Below, piece by piece: positions 42,743 to 51,701 of a stretch of DNA of 64,000 nt (its first letter is position 1; every line of letters begins with the position of its first letter). Under the pieces are notes generated by a model. The model ran no database searches. It had not been told where the DNA came from and saw only the letters and a program-made list of their open reading frames with translations. Source of the stretch: Alphaproteobacteria bacterium (lineage in GTDB: Bacteria; Pseudomonadota; Alphaproteobacteria; Micropepsales; Micropepsaceae); contig JAFKEW010000044.1 in NCBI GenBank assembly GCA_017308375.1, positions 124,001-188,000 on the forward strand, written 5' to 3'. Made by a program: the position numbers and the translations under genes.

Positions 42743-42918
42743 CTGCAAACGGTTAACCGCGACACCGCCTCCTTGCAAGAACGATTGCGGGGACGGAATC
42801 GTGGCGCGTGCGCGGTTACCTGCCCGGCCGCTCCGCCTTTTGTGACACGAACGATAATTTGCGCGGACGCGGGCTTTCTTTATGCTCTGCCGGGCAGGAA
42901 GCAGAATCGGGGTTTCGC

Positions 42919-44697
42919 ATGGTCGCCTTTTTGCGCTGGCTGCGGTCCATCGTGGCCGGCACGTTCAATGGGCTGGTCAAGATCGCATTCGCGATCGTTC
43001 TGATCTTGCTGGCCTTTGTCGTTGTCGGCCTGCTGCAGGGCGATGGACTGCCGGGCAATATGGTGCTGACGCTGGACCTCAGGCAGTCGATTGCCGATTC
43101 CGCACCCCGTACCCCGTTTGATCTTGGCGACCGCAAGCCGACCGTGATGAGCATCGTGCGCGGGCTCGATCAGGCCCAGCGTGACGCCCGGGTGAAGGGC
43201 GTCATGATGGATCTGGGTGGTGGCCTCTCGGTCGCCGAGGCGGAGGAGATTACCGCCGCACTGCGCCGCTTCCGTGCGGCCGGGAAATTCGTGGTCGCCT
43301 ATTCGCACGGATTTACCTCCAGCGGGCTGGGCGATTATCTGACGGCGACGGGGGCGGACAAGATCTGGATGCAGCCGATGTCGCCGTTCAGCCCTTCCGG
43401 CGTCGGCGCGGGCGAGGTGTTCTTCCGCGGCCTGCTCGACAAAGTTCAGGCCGAACCACAAATCATCAAACGGGCCGAATTCAAAAGCGCGGCCGACACG
43501 TTCATGGAAAAATCCATGACGGAGCCGGACCGCCTGCAACTGACCACGCTGCTCAATTCGGTTTATCATTCGGCCACGCGCGCCGCGGCGGGGGAGCGCA
43601 AGGTGCCGCTGGAAAAACTGGTCGCGACACTCGACAACGGGCCACAATTCGCGGGCGATGCGAAGAAGGCCGGATTGATCGACAACCTCGGCTACGACGA
43701 TGAAGCCCGCGCGGCGGTTTTGAAGCGCGCCGGAAAAGATGCCAAGGAAATTTCGCTGATGAAGTTCCTTCGCGCCAAGGAGTCATCGGGCGAATTCGGC
43801 AGCGGCACCAGGATCGCGTTGATCGAGGCGGCCGGCGATATTGTCGATGGCACCGCAGAGCCCGGTTTTTTCGGCGGCAATCCGGTCATCGCCAGCGATA
43901 ATCTTTCCGATGCCATTCGCGATGCCGGGAATGACAGCCGGATCAAAGCCATTGTGCTGCGGGTGGATTCGCCTGGTGGATCGGTCACCGCGTCCGACCA
44001 GATTCTGCACGCGATCAAAAGCGTGCAGGCGAAGGGCAAACCGGTGGTTGTCAGCATGGGCGGGGTTGCGGCCTCCGGCGGCTATTACATCTCCTCCGGC
44101 GCGAAAAAAATCGTGGCGGAGCCTTCCACTATCACCGGCTCTATCGGTGTGTTGACCGGCAAGGTCTCGTTCGCCAAATCGCTGGGTCTGATCGGTGTCG
44201 GTGCCGAACAGATCGGCGTCGGCAAAAACGCCCTGATCGATTCACCGCTTGAGCCATTCTCGGAAGATCAGTTGGCCCTGATCAATTCGCAGGTCGATCG
44301 CATCTATGCCGACTTCCTGCAGAAGGTCGCAACCGGCCGCAATCTGCCGCTGCACAAAGTGGAGGAGATCGCCAAGGGCCGAATCTGGAGTGGTACGGAC
44401 GCGAAGACCATTGGTCTGGTGGACAGGATCGGCGGCCTGTGGACGGCGGTTGACGAAGCCAGAACGCTCGCCAAAGTGCCCGCGAACGAGGCGGTTGTGC
44501 TGCAACGCTATCCAAGCCCGAAGGGTTTCTTCGAATCGCTGGAAAATCTGTTCGGTGGAACGGCGGCCGGTGTTCGCGCGGCACAGGGCCTTGCGCGGAT
44601 TATCGAATTGCCACCCATCCAGACGGCGTTGGAAGCGATGAGCAGCGTGCCGCGCGGTCAGGTGGAATTGCGGGCACCGCAGGTGCGGGCGCCCTGA
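42919..44697 (+). CDS. sppA: Signal peptide peptidase SppA, 67-kDa type
   Basis: 592 residues, the two-domain form. An N-terminal anchor helix (about 16-38, KIAFAIVLILLAFVVVGLL) places it on the periplasmic face of the inner membrane. The N-terminal half carries the catalytic Lys in LTATGADKIWM. The C-terminal half carries the nucleophile Ser in GGVAASGGYYISSGA and the VDSPGGSV block. It digests cleaved signal peptides. ATG 42919 begins the membrane anchor; the longer upstream frame is unconserved. Confidence 0.94.
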   Translation: MVAFLRWLRSIVAGTFNGLVKIAFAIVLILLAFVVVGLLQGDGLPGNMVLTLDLRQSIADSAPRTPFDLGDRKPTVMSIVRGLDQAQRDARVKGVMMDLGGGLSVAEAEEITAALRRFRAAGKFVVAYSHGFTSSGLGDYLTATGADKIWMQPMSPFSPSGVGAGEVFFRGLLDKVQAEPQIIKRAEFKSAADTFMEKSMTEPDRLQLTTLLNSVYHSATRAAAGERKVPLEKLVATLDNGPQFAGDAKKAGLIDNLGYDDEARAAVLKRAGKDAKEISLMKFLRAKESSGEFGSGTRIALIEAAGDIVDGTAEPGFFGGNPVIASDNLSDAIRDAGNDSRIKAIVLRVDSPGGSVTASDQILHAIKSVQAKGKPVVVSMGGVAASGGYYISSGAKKIVAEPSTITGSIGVLTGKVSFAKSLGLIGVGAEQIGVGKNALIDSPLEPFSEDQLALINSQVDRIYADFLQKVATGRNLPLHKVEEIAKGRIWSGTDAKTIGLVDRIGGLWTAVDEARTLAKVPANEAVVLQRYPSPKGFFESLENLFGGTAAGVRAAQGLARIIELPPIQTALEAMSSVPRGQVELRAPQVRAP

Positions 44698-44753: not shown

Positions 44754-46061
44754 TTGAAGCGCAGCCGGCGACGCGATTGGCGGACGACGGTGGAGGATCA
44801 ATCTTTTATTGCGAATCTGGCGCAGGCTGCATTGGCGGCAATGCGCGCCGGCCGCATGGACGAGGCGGCACACACCTGGGACCGGATTCTGGCGCGCGCG
44901 CCGGAACATGCGCAGGCTTTACTCTATCGCGGGCAGATCGCCCTGCTGCGAAAGGATGCGGCAGGTGCGACGGCGCTTCTGGAACAGGCGGCAAAAGCCG
45001 CCCCGCGGGAGCCCGCGATTGCCTTGAACATGGCCTTCGCCTGCCGGGCCGCCGGCAATCTTGCTGGCGAGGCTGAAAATCTGGAGCGGGCGCTGACGCT
45101 CAATCCTTATTTCTTTCCGGCGCTGCTCGCCAAAGGCGCCATGCTGGAACGGGCAGGCCATCCGCGTTCTGCCGCGCAAGTATATCGTAATGCAATTAAG
45201 ATCGCGCCGCCGGAAGAACGGGTCCCGCCCGATCTGCGTGGCGCGCTTCAGCACGCAAGGCAATGCGTCGAAGCCGACAACGCCGCTCTTTCCGCCCACC
45301 TCGAAGCGCGTGTCGGCCCGCTGCGGTCAGAGACCGATGATGTGAACCTTGCACGTTTCGATGAATGCGCGGGCATCGCGGCGGGCAGGAAGAAGGTTTA
45401 TACCTCCGATCCGGTGATGCTCTACTATCCCCGCCTTCCGGCCATCACCTATTTCGAGGAAAGCCTGTTTCCCTGGCTGGGCGGCGTGGAAGCGGCTACC
45501 GAAATTATTCGCGCGGAATTTGCCGCGGCGGCCATGGCCGAAGGCGGGGAATTTTCGCCCTACGTCAACCATCCCGACAGCGCGCCACTCAACCAATGGG
45601 CCGAACTCAACCGCTCGCCACGCTGGAGCGCCTATTTCCTGTGGAAAGATGGTGTCCGGCAGGACGCGCATTGTGCGCAATGCCCTGAGACGGCACGCAT
45701 TCTGGAAACGCTGCCGCTGCTGGAGATTGACGGTTTCGCGCCAACAGCTTTTTTCTCCCTGCTTCAGCCCCACACCCGCATCCCACCACATACCGGTAGC
45801 ACCAACACACGGCTCACCGTTCATGTGCCTTTGATCGTCCCGGATGGTTGTGCCTTCCGTGTCGGCAACGATGTCCGTGAATGGCGGCCCGGCGCGGCCT
45901 GGGTATTCGACGATACGATCGAGCATGAGGCCTGGAACAACAGCGACAAGCCGCGCGCCATTCTGATCTTCGATGTGTGGAATCCATTGCTCAGCGCGGC
46001 GGAACGGGAGTTGTTCGCAGCACTTCTGATTGAGCGCCGCGCATATTATGCGGGCGGATAG
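44754..46061 (+). CDS. TPR protein with aspartyl/asparaginyl beta-hydroxylase domain
   Basis: 435 residues. TPR-like helical repeats fill about residues 20-170 (AALAAMRAGRMDEAAHTWDRIL; AQALLYRGQIALLRKDAAGATALL). The C-terminal third is an Asp/Asn beta-hydroxylase-type Fe(II)/2-oxoglutarate domain. It shows PHTRIPPHTGSTNTRLTVHVPL (first iron His), the CAFRVGNDVREW core, FDDTIEHEAWNNSD (second His) and RAILIFDVWNP. Such enzymes hydroxylate Asp or Asn side chains or lipid chains. The start is uncertain: TTG 44754 or GTG 44790. It is convergent with the sulfotransferase gene, overlapping by 16 bases. No signal peptide, so cytosolic. Confidence 0.88.
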   Translation: MKRSRRRDWRTTVEDQSFIANLAQAALAAMRAGRMDEAAHTWDRILARAPEHAQALLYRGQIALLRKDAAGATALLEQAAKAAPREPAIALNMAFACRAAGNLAGEAENLERALTLNPYFFPALLAKGAMLERAGHPRSAAQVYRNAIKIAPPEERVPPDLRGALQHARQCVEADNAALSAHLEARVGPLRSETDDVNLARFDECAGIAAGRKKVYTSDPVMLYYPRLPAITYFEESLFPWLGGVEAATEIIRAEFAAAAMAEGGEFSPYVNHPDSAPLNQWAELNRSPRWSAYFLWKDGVRQDAHCAQCPETARILETLPLLEIDGFAPTAFFSLLQPHTRIPPHTGSTNTRLTVHVPLIVPDGCAFRVGNDVREWRPGAAWVFDDTIEHEAWNNSDKPRAILIFDVWNPLLSAAERELFAALLIERRAYYAGG

Positions 46062-47677
46062 CCGAACGCTTCCACCCATGGCGCAAGCGGCGCCATGATT
46101 GGGGCAAGCGCCACCGCATAGTTGCGCCACAACGCAACACTCTCTGCATTCAAGCCGCGCATGATTTGCGTCGCGCCCGGTGTCGCGATGGCGCGGCGTT
46201 GCGCCCGCGCCGTGAAATTCCGCATCTGCGCATTCCAATCGACACCGATGAAGGCGCAAAGCCTGCGCGTCTCACTGTCGAAATCGGCAATCAGGTCTTC
46301 GTTGCGAATCTCGGCGATGGTGAGCGGAAGCTTCTGCCGGAACAGCGCCGCCACGCCCATATAGGCGCTATAGAAACTGGCGGCGGAGTCCGGCAGCAGG
46401 AATTCATAAGTATAGGCATTCATCCGGAAGCGGCGGCGAATGCAGCTCAGCACCACATCGCGCGGATCGCGAATGGCGAAGATGATTTTCGCTTCGGGAA
46501 ACAGGCGCGCGATCAACGGCAGTTTCAATGTGTGCAATGGATGTTTGTCGATGAAAATCCCGCCTTCGGGTGCGGCGCCGAATTCACGGACGCGCTGCCA
46601 ATAGAGGGCGCGATAATGCCGGACACCTGCTGCATCCAGATTGCGCAGGCGGTCCAGCCCCTCCGGTGCGGCAAGAAAGGCGCGTGCGGAATCGGCAAGG
46701 GCCTCTTTTTCATCCAGCGAGATCGCGCCTGGAAGGCTCGCCAGGATTTGCTCCAGCAATGTGGTGCCGGAGCGTGGGAACCCCAGTAGAAAAATATGTT
46801 TCGCCGGTTCACTGTCTGCGCCTGCCACTATTGTTTGTGGCCATGGCGTGGTGTTGCGGAAATAGTGATCCAGCCACCCGATGACAGGGCGCATGGTGCG
46901 GCCGGGGGCAAAGCGCGCCGCCGCTGCCCGATGCATTTCCCGGTTGCCCTGCACATAGGCTGTATAAGCGTCCGCGAAGCGGTCTTGCCGGTGATAGAGA
47001 TCGCCCAATGCGCCAAAGGCGTGATAACGCTCCTCGGCATTGCCACGCCCGCCGCTCAGCATATTTTTCAAGGCGGTTTCGGCGTCTGTGAAATGGCTTT
47101 CCGCAATGTCGGCGGTCGCGCGGGCCAGCCGGGCGTCGTTCTGATCACGATTGATGGCAAGGGCACGGCCTGCAAGATCCCGTACCGCGTTCCAGTCGCC
47201 GCGCCGCGCGGCGAGGGAGGCAAGGCGCCCCAATATCTCTGCCCGCGCCGGGTCGAGAACAAGCGCTGCCTCATAAGCTTTGCGTGCCCGATCCAGTTCG
47301 CCGAGTGCTTCCAGCGCCCAGCCGGCATTGAAATGGGCGTGTGCGAAATCAGGTTTGGCAGCGGCGGCGGCTTCGAATGCGGATACGGCCTCCAGCAAAC
47401 GGTTCTGCCGTGCAAAGGTGAGGCCCAGCGCGTTGTGGATGGCCGGGTCCTGCGGCGCCAGTTCGCGCGCCTGCAACAGATCGTTCAGTGCGTCCTGCTC
47501 GCGGCCTTCGCGTTCGAACGCCAGTGCGCGCAGATTGAGCAGCAGGGGATGCACCACGCCATCGCTCAGAGCCGCACGGGCGAGCCTGATTGCGCCGGCC
47601 GTGTCGGACGTCTGAAGCGCACGCTCCACCGCGTGCAGGCGGGCTTTGTCCCCGGCGGTCAGTGGCGGTGCAGACAA
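46046..47677 (-). CDS. TPR-containing sulfotransferase
   Basis: 543 residues. Residues 1-240 are tetratricopeptide repeats (HNALGLTFARQNRLLEAVSAFEAA; HAHFNAGWALEALGELDRARKAYEAAL). The C-terminal 270 residues are a PAPS-dependent sulfotransferase: 5'-phosphosulfate loop LGFPRSGTTLLEQIL, catalytic-region FIDKHPLHTLKLP, and 3'-phosphate motif FAIRDPRDVVLSCIRR. The TPR half probably recruits a peptide or protein substrate, as in protein-tyrosine sulfotransferase-like bacterial enzymes (inference). It lies directly downstream of the TonB-dependent receptor on the same strand, but a terminator separates them. Confidence 0.92.
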   Translation of the reverse strand: MSAPPLTAGDKARLHAVERALQTSDTAGAIRLARAALSDGVVHPLLLNLRALAFEREGREQDALNDLLQARELAPQDPAIHNALGLTFARQNRLLEAVSAFEAAAAAKPDFAHAHFNAGWALEALGELDRARKAYEAALVLDPARAEILGRLASLAARRGDWNAVRDLAGRALAINRDQNDARLARATADIAESHFTDAETALKNMLSGGRGNAEERYHAFGALGDLYHRQDRFADAYTAYVQGNREMHRAAAARFAPGRTMRPVIGWLDHYFRNTTPWPQTIVAGADSEPAKHIFLLGFPRSGTTLLEQILASLPGAISLDEKEALADSARAFLAAPEGLDRLRNLDAAGVRHYRALYWQRVREFGAAPEGGIFIDKHPLHTLKLPLIARLFPEAKIIFAIRDPRDVVLSCIRRRFRMNAYTYEFLLPDSAASFYSAYMGVAALFRQKLPLTIAEIRNEDLIADFDSETRRLCAFIGVDWNAQMRNFTARAQRRAIATPGATQIMRGLNAESVALWRNYAVALAPIMAPLAPWVEAFGYPPA

Positions 47678-47819
47678 AATGCATCTCCTTACCCACTCGA
47701 TGTCATGGCCCGCCGGAGTGCGGACCGTCCAGGTGAGTTGCGCACAGCTTAACAGGAACGCGTACGGACAGTCCTGTCGCAGAAGCTAAGGTGTCATATA
47801 GGCGGCCCGGCCAAGCACA

Positions 47820-47850
47820 CAAAAAAGCGGCGGCCTTTTGGGCCGCCGCT
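47820..47850 (-). terminator. Rho-independent terminator of the TonB-dependent receptor gene
   Basis: AGCGGCGGCC (47826-47835) pairs with GGCCGCCGCT (47841-47850). Read on the minus strand, the stem is followed by TTTTTT. It lies 24 bases beyond the receptor stop. Confidence 0.9.
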
Positions 47851-47873
47851 CGAAGTCGTCGTTGCGTCGAGGC

Positions 47874-50800
47874 TTAGTACTTCAGGGTTGCACCCACGAA
47901 GAACACCCGGCCCAGCGAGTCGTAGACCTGCGGGAAGGTGTTGCCGCTGCCGTAAGGCGGCACGGCCACATAGCTCGAATCGAGGATCGGCGGGTCCTTG
48001 TCGAACAGGTTGGTCACACCGGCGCGGAGGTTGACACCTTCGCGGACGGTCCATGTGCCAGCCAGGTCGAAGTAGTTGTAGGTGCCGATATGCGCATCCG
48101 CGAGGTCGCCGCATGGGCCGCCGCAGAGGCCGTTCAACAACGGGTTGTCGGTGTTGAAGTCAACCGACGAGCCGCCGATGAAACGCCACGCAACCGAGAT
48201 GTCGAAGTCCCATGGCGCGCTCCAAGTCACGCGCAGTTTGTGGCGCCATTTCGGTGTCGGCGTGCCGCAGACGTTACCGTACCGGCCCGAACACTCATAG
48301 ACGTGTGGCTCGGGAAGCCCGGCTGCCTCGTAAATCGCCGGCGGGATTGGCTGGGTGGCATAGCTGCCGGTATATGTGCCGACGAGGTTGATCGCCAACG
48401 CGCCGTTCGGGCCCATGCCCCACTGGTCGAGATCGGTCTGATAGTTGATCTCGACATCCACACCTTCGTTTTTCAGGAAGCCGGTGTTGGTGTTCAGTGA
48501 TTCGACATAACCCGCGGTGGTCCCGAAGATGATGCCGGTACCCGTGCCGCGATGGATCAGGTTACACAGGAACGGCGCACCCGAGAGGGCGCAGCCGGAG
48601 ATCACAGTCTGCTGCGGCAGCGTGTTGATCAGGCCCTTCACCTTGATATTGAAGTAGTCGATCGTCGCGGTGAAGCCGTCCAGGAAGGTCGGCGTGAACA
48701 CGATGCCGGCGGTCCATGAGTCAGCCGATTCCGGCTTCAGACTCTGGTTGCCACCGAACAGGGCGGAACATTGACCGGCCGGGCAATCCAGTGACGGGTT
48801 GCCGTAAAGGCCTGCCGGCAAGCCGGTGTTGGCGCATTGCGCGGCCGTCAGCGTCGGGTTGGTGCCGCACGGATCGGCACCGCCCCACAGCCCGATCGAC
48901 CGCTGTGAGAACAGCTCCACCACGTTCGGTGCACGCACCGCACGGGCATAGCTGCCGCGCAGACGGAAGTCGTCGATCGGCTGCCATTCCAGGCCGTATT
49001 TGTACGACGAGGTAACGCCGGACAGGTTGTAGGAGGAATAGCGGTATCCGGCGTTGGCGGTCAGGTCCTCTGCGAAGGGCATGCCCTGCACGATCGGAAC
49101 CCGGATTTCGCCGAAGCCTTCGGCCACGTTGTAGGAGCCGTTGACGGACGGCGTCGGCCCACCCTGACCGGCAAGGTCGCCGCTGGTGAACAGCGCGTCG
49201 GTCCGCAGGGTCAGCGATTCCTGGCGATACTCCGTGCCAACGCTGACAGCCACAGGAGCCTGCGCCCAGGGGGACTGAATGCCCCATTGGCCCAGATCGC
49301 CTGCGATGTTCGCGCCGACCACCTGTTCAACCGTCGAACCTTCTTTGAAGCCCGGTGTCGCGAGATATTTGATGACGTCCGGAGTGAGGCCATTCAGGTC
49401 GAACAGATTGTAAGGCACGCACGATGCGTCGGTACCGGCGATAACCGATTTACAGGTCGGCACACCACCGACATCGACAACCTGCAACGCATTCTGCTGG
49501 CGGGTTACCGATGTATCGTTCAGGTAGTTTTCGGCATAGATCGAGGTGCCGTACTGGCCGAACACTTCGTAATTCCAGCTATCGCCAAGGTCACCCTTCA
49601 CACCGACGACGATACGGTAATCGGTATGACGCAGATCGTCCTGGCGGTCGCCGGCTTCGACGAAGCGGCGCCCAACCTGAAGGTTCACATCATCGGTTGG
49701 CCCGATCAGCCCTTGCGAGATCAGCGGCTGACAGAAGAGGGAGAAGGGCGAGTTCGGGTTGGTCGCGCTACCCAAGAACGGGTTGTCGCAGTTCACGTGC
49801 ATGTTGCCGTTGAACGGCGCGGTACCGCGGAAGTAGCCGGATGGTGCAATCTGCGCCACCGTGTGATCGTCCATGAACATGAAGTTCGCGAACACATCGA
49901 AGGCCTTGTTCACTTCATAATGAGCAAAGCCGCCACCCATATAGCGCTCGTCCGGGCGCTGCAGATAGTTCAGCGGGGCGAAGTTGTAGGCATCGCGGGA
50001 ACCGACATACGGCTCAAGCGATCCGCCCGGCAGGCTGCGATACGCCGTACCGAAATTCGGATTCTGCTGAATGTCGTCGTCTGTACCGAGCACGCCGTCC
50101 GGGCCTGCCAGAAGGAACGAATCCTGGCTGCGGATATTGCCGACCGCCGCGTTGCTCGATCCAAGGCAGGTGAACCCTCTGGGATCGAGGGTGGCAGGAA
50201 GTCCGTTCTGCGGATTGGAATTGGATGCCACCGCGCAGGACGACCAGTCGCGTGCGCCTTGCAGAACCTTCTGGATATTGCGGTAACCGGCATAGAGGGT
50301 GACGTTGCCTTTGCCGTCAGCCGTGTTGGCGCCCATGATCAGGGTCGCATCGACGGTGCCACCATCCCACAGGCTGCTCGGTGCGCGCACCAGCGGAAAG
50401 CCTGCACTGTCAAGCGATGGCCCGATGACATCGTTGCCGTTGGTGTGCTGCGCAACGCCGTACTGGGCGTCGAGTTCGATGCCCTCGAAATCCTTGCGCA
50501 TGATGAAGTTGACAACGCCGGCCACAGCATCGGAGCCGTACACCGAAGAGGCGCCGCCGGTCAGAACTTCAACATGATCCACCAGCGCGGCGGGGATGAA
50601 GTTCAGGTCAGGGGCCGCCGTGCTTCTGCCGGCAGCGCTCGGATCGCCCGGCATCAGGCGCTTGCCATCGATCAGCACCAGGGTGCGGTTGGCACCAAGG
50701 TTACGCAGATTGGCGGTTGCCGTACCGGTTGCGCCGTTGGCGAGATTGCCGCCCTGATCGGCGAAGGCTGATGGCAGGCTGTTGACCAGGTTTTCGACAC

Positions 50801-51020
50801 CGGTCGTGCCCTGGAATTGCATTTCCTGCTGACCGACCGCGGTCACCGGGCTGGAGCTGTAAAGACCCTGTTGCGGAATGCGTGAACCCGTGACGATCAC
50901 GGTTTCAACCGACTGGTCCTGCGCGAACGCAGGTGTGCTCAGGCCAAACGCTGCAGCGGATGCCGCACCGAGAAGCAGAGCAGAGCGCAGGCTGGACCTG
51001 CCATTTGTAAGTTCAATCAC
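47874..51020 (-). CDS. TonB-dependent outer-membrane receptor
   Basis: 1048 residues. A signal peptide (about 1-33, STPAFA-QD) is followed by a TonB box-like segment SVETVIVTGSRIP, then the plug domain (about 45-165: LVLIDGKRLMPGD, VEVLTGGASSVYGSDAVAGVVNFIMRK). A 22-strand barrel of roughly 850 residues ends in the aromatic C-terminus VFFVGATLKY. The extracellular loops are unusually Cys-rich, with closely spaced pairs (for example PTCKSVIAGTDASCVPYN, CALSGAPFLC, LCGGPCG), probably disulfides. The type is common in Caulobacterales and Sphingomonadales; ligand unknown. Start is GTG 51018-51020, and no N-terminal signalling domain is present. Confidence 0.94.
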   Translation of the reverse strand: MIELTNGRSSLRSALLLGAASAAAFGLSTPAFAQDQSVETVIVTGSRIPQQGLYSSSPVTAVGQQEMQFQGTTGVENLVNSLPSAFADQGGNLANGATGTATANLRNLGANRTLVLIDGKRLMPGDPSAAGRSTAAPDLNFIPAALVDHVEVLTGGASSVYGSDAVAGVVNFIMRKDFEGIELDAQYGVAQHTNGNDVIGPSLDSAGFPLVRAPSSLWDGGTVDATLIMGANTADGKGNVTLYAGYRNIQKVLQGARDWSSCAVASNSNPQNGLPATLDPRGFTCLGSSNAAVGNIRSQDSFLLAGPDGVLGTDDDIQQNPNFGTAYRSLPGGSLEPYVGSRDAYNFAPLNYLQRPDERYMGGGFAHYEVNKAFDVFANFMFMDDHTVAQIAPSGYFRGTAPFNGNMHVNCDNPFLGSATNPNSPFSLFCQPLISQGLIGPTDDVNLQVGRRFVEAGDRQDDLRHTDYRIVVGVKGDLGDSWNYEVFGQYGTSIYAENYLNDTSVTRQQNALQVVDVGGVPTCKSVIAGTDASCVPYNLFDLNGLTPDVIKYLATPGFKEGSTVEQVVGANIAGDLGQWGIQSPWAQAPVAVSVGTEYRQESLTLRTDALFTSGDLAGQGGPTPSVNGSYNVAEGFGEIRVPIVQGMPFAEDLTANAGYRYSSYNLSGVTSSYKYGLEWQPIDDFRLRGSYARAVRAPNVVELFSQRSIGLWGGADPCGTNPTLTAAQCANTGLPAGLYGNPSLDCPAGQCSALFGGNQSLKPESADSWTAGIVFTPTFLDGFTATIDYFNIKVKGLINTLPQQTVISGCALSGAPFLCNLIHRGTGTGIIFGTTAGYVESLNTNTGFLKNEGVDVEINYQTDLDQWGMGPNGALAINLVGTYTGSYATQPIPPAIYEAAGLPEPHVYECSGRYGNVCGTPTPKWRHKLRVTWSAPWDFDISVAWRFIGGSSVDFNTDNPLLNGLCGGPCGDLADAHIGTYNYFDLAGTWTVREGVNLRAGVTNLFDKDPPILDSSYVAVPPYGSGNTFPQVYDSLGRVFFVGATLKY

Positions 51021-51341
51021 GTTGGGAACCCCCTTGGTATTGTCGCAACGACGACGTCCACCAACGAGCGTGTCTTCGCCAGAATGGCTAAAATCTCCCC
51101 AAACGTTTTTGTAACGCAGAGGAAATGCTCGTTTGCGCGAAAGCTAGAAGAGCGCCCTTGCCCGGTCAAAATGGATTTGGTGTACAGACAAATTCGCCTT
51201 CCGTTTGTGATAATTTCGCACCACCTCTGTGGTATTCTGTTATGAAGTGGCTGACCAAGCGCGTGTTTCGCAAGGAAAATGCCGTCGTTCTGACCGGAGC
51301 TGTGTTAAAATAGCCGCAGATGGGGCGCGATGGAGGATGGA
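51021..51341. other. 321-base divergent region between receptor and small secreted protein genes
   Basis: No coding sequence is seen. It must carry promoters for both flanking genes. A TTAAAAT -10-like box lies about 35 bases before the ATG at 51342. AT-rich stretches occur near 51085-51110 and 51190-51210. No clear Fur-like or extended palindromic operator was found by eye. Confidence 0.45.
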
Positions 51342-51701
51342 ATGCTGAAAAGCGTATGGATCCTTGCGGTTGCATCTGTTTTTCCGCTGTCCGTTATGGC
51401 GGCTCCGGCCGCTTCGGGCTCGACTCAATGCCTGCAAACGCGTGACGTGGCGTCGTTCTCGCAAGGTGGCCGCCTTGCTGTGGTGGCCACTGCGAAGGAC
51501 GGCCGGAAATATGATGTCGCCTTCCGCAATGCCTGCCCTTATCACCTGAACAGCCACTTCGTGTATGAGCAGTGGAAGCTCGGGCGCTGCCTGACCGCAG
51601 GGGATGCCTTGCCGATCAGCACCGGCGGGGCCTGCATCGTCGCTTCGGTCAAGGCCCGGCCCGCCGCGTCTCCCGCACAAACACCGGCCGGGGCTTATTG
51701 A
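51342..51701 (+). CDS. Small secreted Cys-containing protein
   Basis: 119 residues with a signal peptide (about 1-21, VMAAPAASG cleavage zone). The mature part has four cysteines: STQCLQTRD, FRNACPYHL, LGRCLTAG and GGACIVASV. The spacing recalls the DUF6491-like protein at 39.8 kb, but overall similarity is weak. A Pro/Ala-rich tail follows. Function unknown. GGAGG five bases before ATG 51342 supports the start. The TGA overlaps the TTG start of the deacetylase gene (TTGA), so the two are probably co-translated. Confidence 0.7.
   Translation: MLKSVWILAVASVFPLSVMAAPAASGSTQCLQTRDVASFSQGGRLAVVATAKDGRKYDVAFRNACPYHLNSHFVYEQWKLGRCLTAGDALPISTGGACIVASVKARPAASPAQTPAGAY

Follow-up and report, generated by a model that had tools for sequence, protein, structure and literature searches.

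The 64,000-nucleotide stretch of DNA analysed here (the window; contig JAFKEW010000044.1 from a member of the alphaproteobacterial family Micropepsaceae) carries, side by side, a gene for a TonB-dependent receptor (TBDR) and genes for two enzymes built on one plan, a TPR arm followed by a putative protein-modifying domain: a TPR-sulfotransferase (ST) and a TPR-Asp/Asn beta-hydroxylase-like oxygenase (HYD). A previous reading of the letters and their translations (the sequence-only reading) had listed a 1048-residue TBDR, both enzymes and a 16-base tail-to-tail overlap of the enzyme genes, and had proposed that the two enzymes, taken to be of protein-modifying type, act on one protein or peptide that the receptor imports or displays, or on the receptor itself. 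Open reading frame (ORF) coordinates and Pfam matches place the three genes and the overlap exactly where that reading had them:

47874–51020, minus strand: TBDR gene; 1048 aa from a GTG start, with Pfam Plug and TonB_dep_Rec beta-barrel domains.
46046–47677, minus strand: ST gene; 543 aa, TPR plus PF13469 (E = 2e-31).
46856–47656, minus strand: TPR/helical superhelix of ST (residues 8–274), from Pfam TPR matches and helices 8–274 of the predicted model.
46049–46801, minus strand: ST catalytic domain (residues 293–543) with PRSGTT, Arg302, Glu323, Lys378 and Arg403, from alignment to tyrosylprotein sulfotransferase (TPST) chains and conservation in 63 STs.
44754–46061, plus strand: HYD gene; TPR plus PF05118 (E = 5e-46), 435 aa counted from a TTG start that is uncertain, given that orthologues align from about residue 17–20.
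44826–45209, plus strand: HYD TPR region (residues 25–152), from Pfam TPR matches.
45492–45986, plus strand: HYD AspH-type oxygenase domain (residues 247–411), from the PF05118 match and residues invariant in 25 sequences.
46046–46061, no strand assigned: the 16-bp tail-to-tail overlap of HYD and ST, from ORF coordinates.

The TBDR and ST genes lie on the same strand with a 196-bp gap and probably form one operon in which the TBDR comes first. HYD is convergent with ST and starts 56 bp downstream of sppA (42808–44697), so the three genes are not a single operon.

The sequence-only reading had suggested surveying how often the three families occur together. We located HYD, ST and TBDRs of the window's class across 96 genomes from the window's taxonomic family, with uniform placement as the chance expectation; as many contigs were short, the resulting proximity counts are low estimates. 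The survey came out in favour of that reading, with the three families grouped far above chance: 21 of 45 HYDs lay within 5 kb of a class TBDR (0.19 expected), as did 25 of 79 STs (0.32 expected), and 15 HYDs were found at most 1 kb from an ST. A class TBDR was present in 29 of the 33 HYD-bearing genomes (Fisher p = 1.5e-11, uncorrected for kinship). Among the 34 TBDRs of its genome, the window TBDR is the only one to match at E ≤ 1e-100.

Using catalytic-domain profiles, we then mapped 40 family loci plus 80 loci returned by a scan of ~85,000 species genomes. After 14 paralogous HYDs without any partner nearby had been set aside from the 41 family HYD loci, 24 of the remaining 27 carried a class TBDR within 7 kb. 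Outside the family, the same held for 39 of 69 HYD loci, mostly from Alpha- and Gammaproteobacteria, and 24 of those 39 additionally harbored an ST or a TPR-PF13759 enzyme. Among the linked loci are ones from Luteimonas, Lysobacter, Phenylobacterium, Haliea, Chromatocurvus and Sphingomonas. When linkage was treated as a label on the HYD tree, it required 12 changes as compared to a shuffled mean of 25.7, implying that linkage is inherited, deep, and repeatedly gained or lost. Gene order differs by clade, with a convergent arrangement (HYD><ST<TBDR) in some and a divergent one (<TBDR HYD>ST>PKHD) in one clade, where HYD, ST and a PKHD hydroxylase are co-directional and point away from the TBDR (loci L047, L052 and L053). 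That linkage is kept despite altered gene order argues for selection on the grouping. The association of the enzymes with one TBDR class is thus both specific and old.

Neighborhood could also arise through shared regulation, for instance by nutrient or oxygen supply, or through a mobile island, with no common substrate at all. This would fit the split transcription of the three window genes and the occurrence of both enzyme families alone in the same genomes. We nevertheless consider it improbable, since the linkage spans Alpha- and Gammaproteobacteria with reordered genes, is restricted to a single receptor class, and is clustered on the HYD tree.

Turning to the enzymes, the predicted ST model (pLDDT 95) was compared with solved structures. 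Every sulfotransferase-domain match among the 50 fold matches listed was a TPST, with template-modelling scores normalised to the target of up to 0.76; the TPR arm accounted for the rest of the list, made up of TPR proteins and O-GlcNAc-transferase-like proteins. A sequence search of solved structures with the catalytic domain alone likewise returned TPSTs first (E = 1e-9), followed by CurM (E = 7e-5). Arg302, Glu323, Lys378 and Arg403 of ST align with TPST active-site residues, and the Arg of the 5'-phosphosulfate-binding loop precedes the Glu by 21 residues, as in TPST. In TPSTs, we take these positions to be the phosphosulfate-loop Arg, the Glu base, the catalytic Lys and, together with a Ser, the 3'-phosphate-binding Arg. 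They are nearly invariant among 63 STs (Arg302, 62/63; Glu323, 63/63; Lys378, 62/63; Arg403, 63/63), with Ser411 found in 52/63. By fold and sequence, ST therefore looks like a protein-tyrosine-sulfotransferase-like enzyme, in keeping with the protein-modifying type assigned to it earlier. The genome encodes an adenosine-phosphosulfate kinase and can thus make the sulfate donor 3'-phosphoadenosine-5'-phosphosulfate (PAPS).

The closest solved relative of HYD is human AspH (E = 2e-27). Its iron and 2-oxoglutarate (2OG) are bound by Ser668, His679, His690, His725 and Arg735 (PMC6817910). In an alignment of 25 HYD relatives, Ser335, His346, Gly348, Arg353, His357, Asp387, His391 and Arg401 are invariant, and all but Gly348 have a listed AspH counterpart (Ser335=Ser668, His346=His679, Arg353=Arg686, His357=His690, Asp387=Asp721, His391=His725, Arg401=Arg735). 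The third iron-ligand position is Gly, as in AspH. HYD thus combines the two-His iron site of PF05118 and the 2OG-binding residues with an N-terminal TPR region, the latter comprising an above-cut-off TPR_16 match (residues 25–87) and further TPR matches ahead of the oxygenase. We suggest that HYD is AspH-like, again as the sequence-only reading had it, and refrain from calling it a true AspH orthologue because the AspH substrate motif is absent from the window TBDR and rare in its class.

Another possibility is envelope chemistry, by analogy with LpxO and OlsC, which add hydroxyl groups to lipid acyl chains, and with the NodST-like enzymes that sulfate glycans. If ST and HYD modified an envelope lipid or glycan, the receptor might be linked to them for some surface-remodelling reason. 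HYD does match the models of OlsC (103 bits) and LpxO (58 bits), and ST that of NoeE (33 bits), yet these scores fall far under the curated cut-offs of 450, 500 and 500, respectively. HYD was accordingly rejected as an LpxO/OlsC lipid hydroxylase. In addition, solved structures point to AspH and TPST as the best relatives, both enzymes carry TPR arms, and the Gly at the third iron-ligand position of HYD is AspH-like. A lipid or glycan substrate ranks last among the explanations we weighed.

No signal peptide was apparent by eye in either ST or HYD, and both are hence probably cytoplasmic.

Additional enzymes were observed around the same receptor class. Two or three STs in tandem occur at the class TBDR loci L040, L043, L049 and L055. 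A TPR protein ending in a PF13759 2OG oxygenase is encoded at 13/41 HYD loci of the family and 16/69 others, and a PKHD-type hydroxylase scoring above the NCBIfam YbiX/PiuC cut-off occurs in one clade (7/41 family HYD loci); no such hydroxylase gene was found beside the window TBDR. Judged by domain content, the theme of a TPR arm joined to a protein-modifying domain spans at least three predicted enzyme chemistries. A ~360-aa protein with a sulfotransferase-like HTGHVGSTLVSR loop visible by eye (L052:12530-13666 and relatives) accompanies 9/41 family HYD loci and had no Pfam, NCBIfam or PDB match. Islands of several STs, HYDs and oxygenases with no class TBDR within ~10 kb were seen at L089 and L038, and two further loci (L174 and L175) hold three tandem TPR-sulfotransferases with no class TBDR nearby.

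What might these enzymes modify? As they associate with a single TBDR class while gene order varies, we judge the receptor itself to be the likeliest substrate. Besides the Plug domain, the window TBDR has a 22-strand topology inferred from its predicted model (pLDDT 88), and its fold matches in the PDB are FepA/PfeA/BtuB/Cir-type receptors. It contains exactly 16 Cys, all of them, as assigned from the predicted strands, in extracellular loops and arranged as eight close pairs, of which 718/729 and 810/819 are present in 73/73 aligned receptors of the class.

At a probability of roughly 45%, the most likely reading is that ST and HYD form a TPR-guided protein-modification module dedicated to this TBDR class, with the receptor being modified before export. 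Two TPR-armed enzymes of the cytoplasm, a putative TPST-like PAPS sulfotransferase and a putative AspH-like Fe(II)/2OG hydroxylase, would bind the unfolded TBDR, or a segment of it. ST would then sulfate, and HYD hydroxylate, side chains destined for extracellular loops, ahead of Sec export, and the modified loops may alter ligand or surface recognition by the receptor. More tentative is the fuller version, in which an alpha- and gammaproteobacterial TPR-guided system sulfates Tyr and hydroxylates Asp/Asn on the TBDR prior to export and thereby tunes ligand, phage or bacteriocin recognition.

Several observations weigh against the receptor as substrate or lend it no support. The sequence-only reading had noted the paired Cys; their presence in the loops stands, yet the pairs are as frequent in class receptors without an enzyme nearby and are therefore a class trait rather than a sign of the enzymes, and give the proposed modification no backing. 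Between linked receptors and those from HYD-less genomes, no Tyr, Asp or Asn of the loops differed in such a way as to be conserved in the first group and lost in the second; given that the unlinked sample is small (9–11) and partly kin, this null result constitutes weak evidence against the receptor and no refutation. The loops of ST-linked receptors showed no enrichment of acid-flanked Tyr residues, and by the criterion used there are none in those of the window TBDR. The window TBDR also lacks the AspH motif C-x-(D/N)-x4-(Y/F)-x-C, which occurs in only 4/73 class receptors. These four are linked, and the exact match lies at the C810–C819 loop; as the length of this loop is variable and unlinked receptors are similar there, the consensus was rejected as a substrate site and put down to coincidence. 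Class TBDRs are also encoded in genomes without HYD. Conversely, orphan HYDs, for example in Brevundimonas, had no receptor nearby that was detected with a generic profile, one built from class members together with just a few receptors of this genome, which divergent receptors may escape. Finally, the enzyme island of L089, from a Hyphomonadaceae metagenome-assembled genome, has no class TBDR within ~10 kb.

Instead of the receptor, the enzymes might modify a separate, self-made peptide or protein that the TBDR displays or re-imports, be it a secreted signal, a toxin-like peptide, a metallophore or a small secreted partner. Methanobactin operons provide a precedent, combining a TBDR, a sulfotransferase and a ribosomal peptide (PMC3621798), and RaxST sulfates the secreted peptide RaxX (PMC9372746). 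Some loci carry a candidate of this sort: beside TBDR and HYD, at ~16 loci outside the family, lies a gene for a secreted ~170-aa protein that starts with C..RLACYD and ends with LENGQVW..VTIRR..LGSF (LACYD-type), possibly a periplasmic partner or substrate, whose gene overlaps HYD by 4 bp in Polymorphobacter. Examples of the LACYD-type gene are:

L124:11147-11683
L123:11034-11531
L150:11273-11821
L167:13342-13878

On the other hand, no LACYD-type protein was found beside the window genes, and the window's ORF at 51330–51686 matches no family. A precursor-peptide gene, for which the sequence-only reading had suggested a search, did not emerge either: comparison of 59 intergenic stretches from family loci uncovered no conserved short ORF between ST and TBDR or at any consistent place. 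MbnB-type enzymes are likewise absent, with no match to MbnB (PF05114) in the whole genome. A separate substrate consequently appears unlikely, though it comes next after the receptor in our ranking and ahead of shared regulation. The idea that both enzymes act on one protein or peptide tied to the receptor has thus gained from their protein-modifying types and their linkage, while neither a precursor nor a site on the receptor came to light.

Known systems share individual traits with the module that we propose acts on the receptor. Like HYD, human AspH (ASPH) places TPRs ahead of a PF05118 oxygenase with a two-His iron site and Gly at the third position. HYD differs in being bacterial, with no endoplasmic-reticulum anchor or signal peptide apparent; Arg688 of AspH is not conserved, the TPR halves of the two show no significant sequence match, and no EGF-like substrate is apparent for HYD. 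The solved structures of TPST1/2 and tick TPST share with ST the PRSGTT loop, the Glu 21 residues downstream, the Lys and the 3'-phosphate Arg. At ~20% identity, ST has an N-terminal TPR superhelix where TPSTs have a Golgi anchor, and its Tyr specificity is putative. A cytoplasmic site of action, as proposed for ST, has a bacterial parallel in the Xanthomonas tyrosine sulfotransferase, which acts in the cytoplasm ahead of secretion of its substrate (PMC9372746).

Methanobactin operons (MbnT, MbnS, MbnABC) resemble the module in linking a TBDR to a sulfotransferase. MbnS, however, is a PF00685 protein without TPR (PMC3621798), as opposed to the PF13469-plus-TPR architecture of the window ST. 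With MbnB absent genome-wide and no precursor peptide found, we rejected the locus as a methanobactin cluster. Closer in layout are PiuA–PiuC and Fiu–YbiX, in which a TBDR gene sits beside a 2OG oxygenase gene, piuC adjoining piuA (PMC11878004); one clade of the module includes a YbiX/PiuC-family protein. The module differs in its receptor class and in having TPR enzymes and a sulfotransferase in addition, and no YbiX/PiuC member adjoins the window TBDR. By analogy, the module may work like such a receptor-linked oxygenase pair, expanded with TPST-like and AspH-like enzymes.

A literature search, with subscription journals outside its coverage, returned no description of this cluster. To our knowledge, RaxST/RaxX is essentially the one known case of bacterial protein tyrosine sulfation, and AspH-like enzymes of bacteria have no established substrate. 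We regard the module as receptor-linked modifying enzymes in a new form rather than as a proven new modification system. Widespread as it is, it ties TPST-like and AspH-like enzymes, along with several other oxygenases, to one outer-membrane receptor class and thereby names a candidate substrate. If true, outer-membrane receptors would be among those proteins that dedicated enzymes decorate, which would matter for nutrient uptake and for phage and bacteriocin recognition, and bacteria would possess their own version of two modifications otherwise known mainly from the secretory pathway of eukaryotes.

Upstream of the TBDR gene, two further features were noted. The ORF at 51330–51686 (plus strand) encodes a small, presumably secreted protein of ~118 aa with four Cys and a signal-peptide-like start; it sits between the TBDR gene and a histone-deacetylase-like gene and had no Pfam or NCBIfam match. 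The second feature is a short leader:

51027–51050, minus strand: leader just 5' of the TBDR start codon, CGTTGCGACAATACCAAGGGGGTT, including the ribosome-binding purine run; one copy genome-wide.

An Rfam scan of the region matched no RNA family. A near-identical leader precedes class receptors across the genus, whether or not enzymes are encoded nearby, and may serve as an RNA control element that surrounds the ribosome-binding site. In these receptors, the layout consists of GTCGTTACGAC followed by GAACCAAGGGGGTTC, which abuts the start codon, and farther upstream lies a promoter-like TTTTGACC; in the window's copy the second hairpin is weakened, and the conserved stretch upstream of the TBDR gene extends to ~51250.

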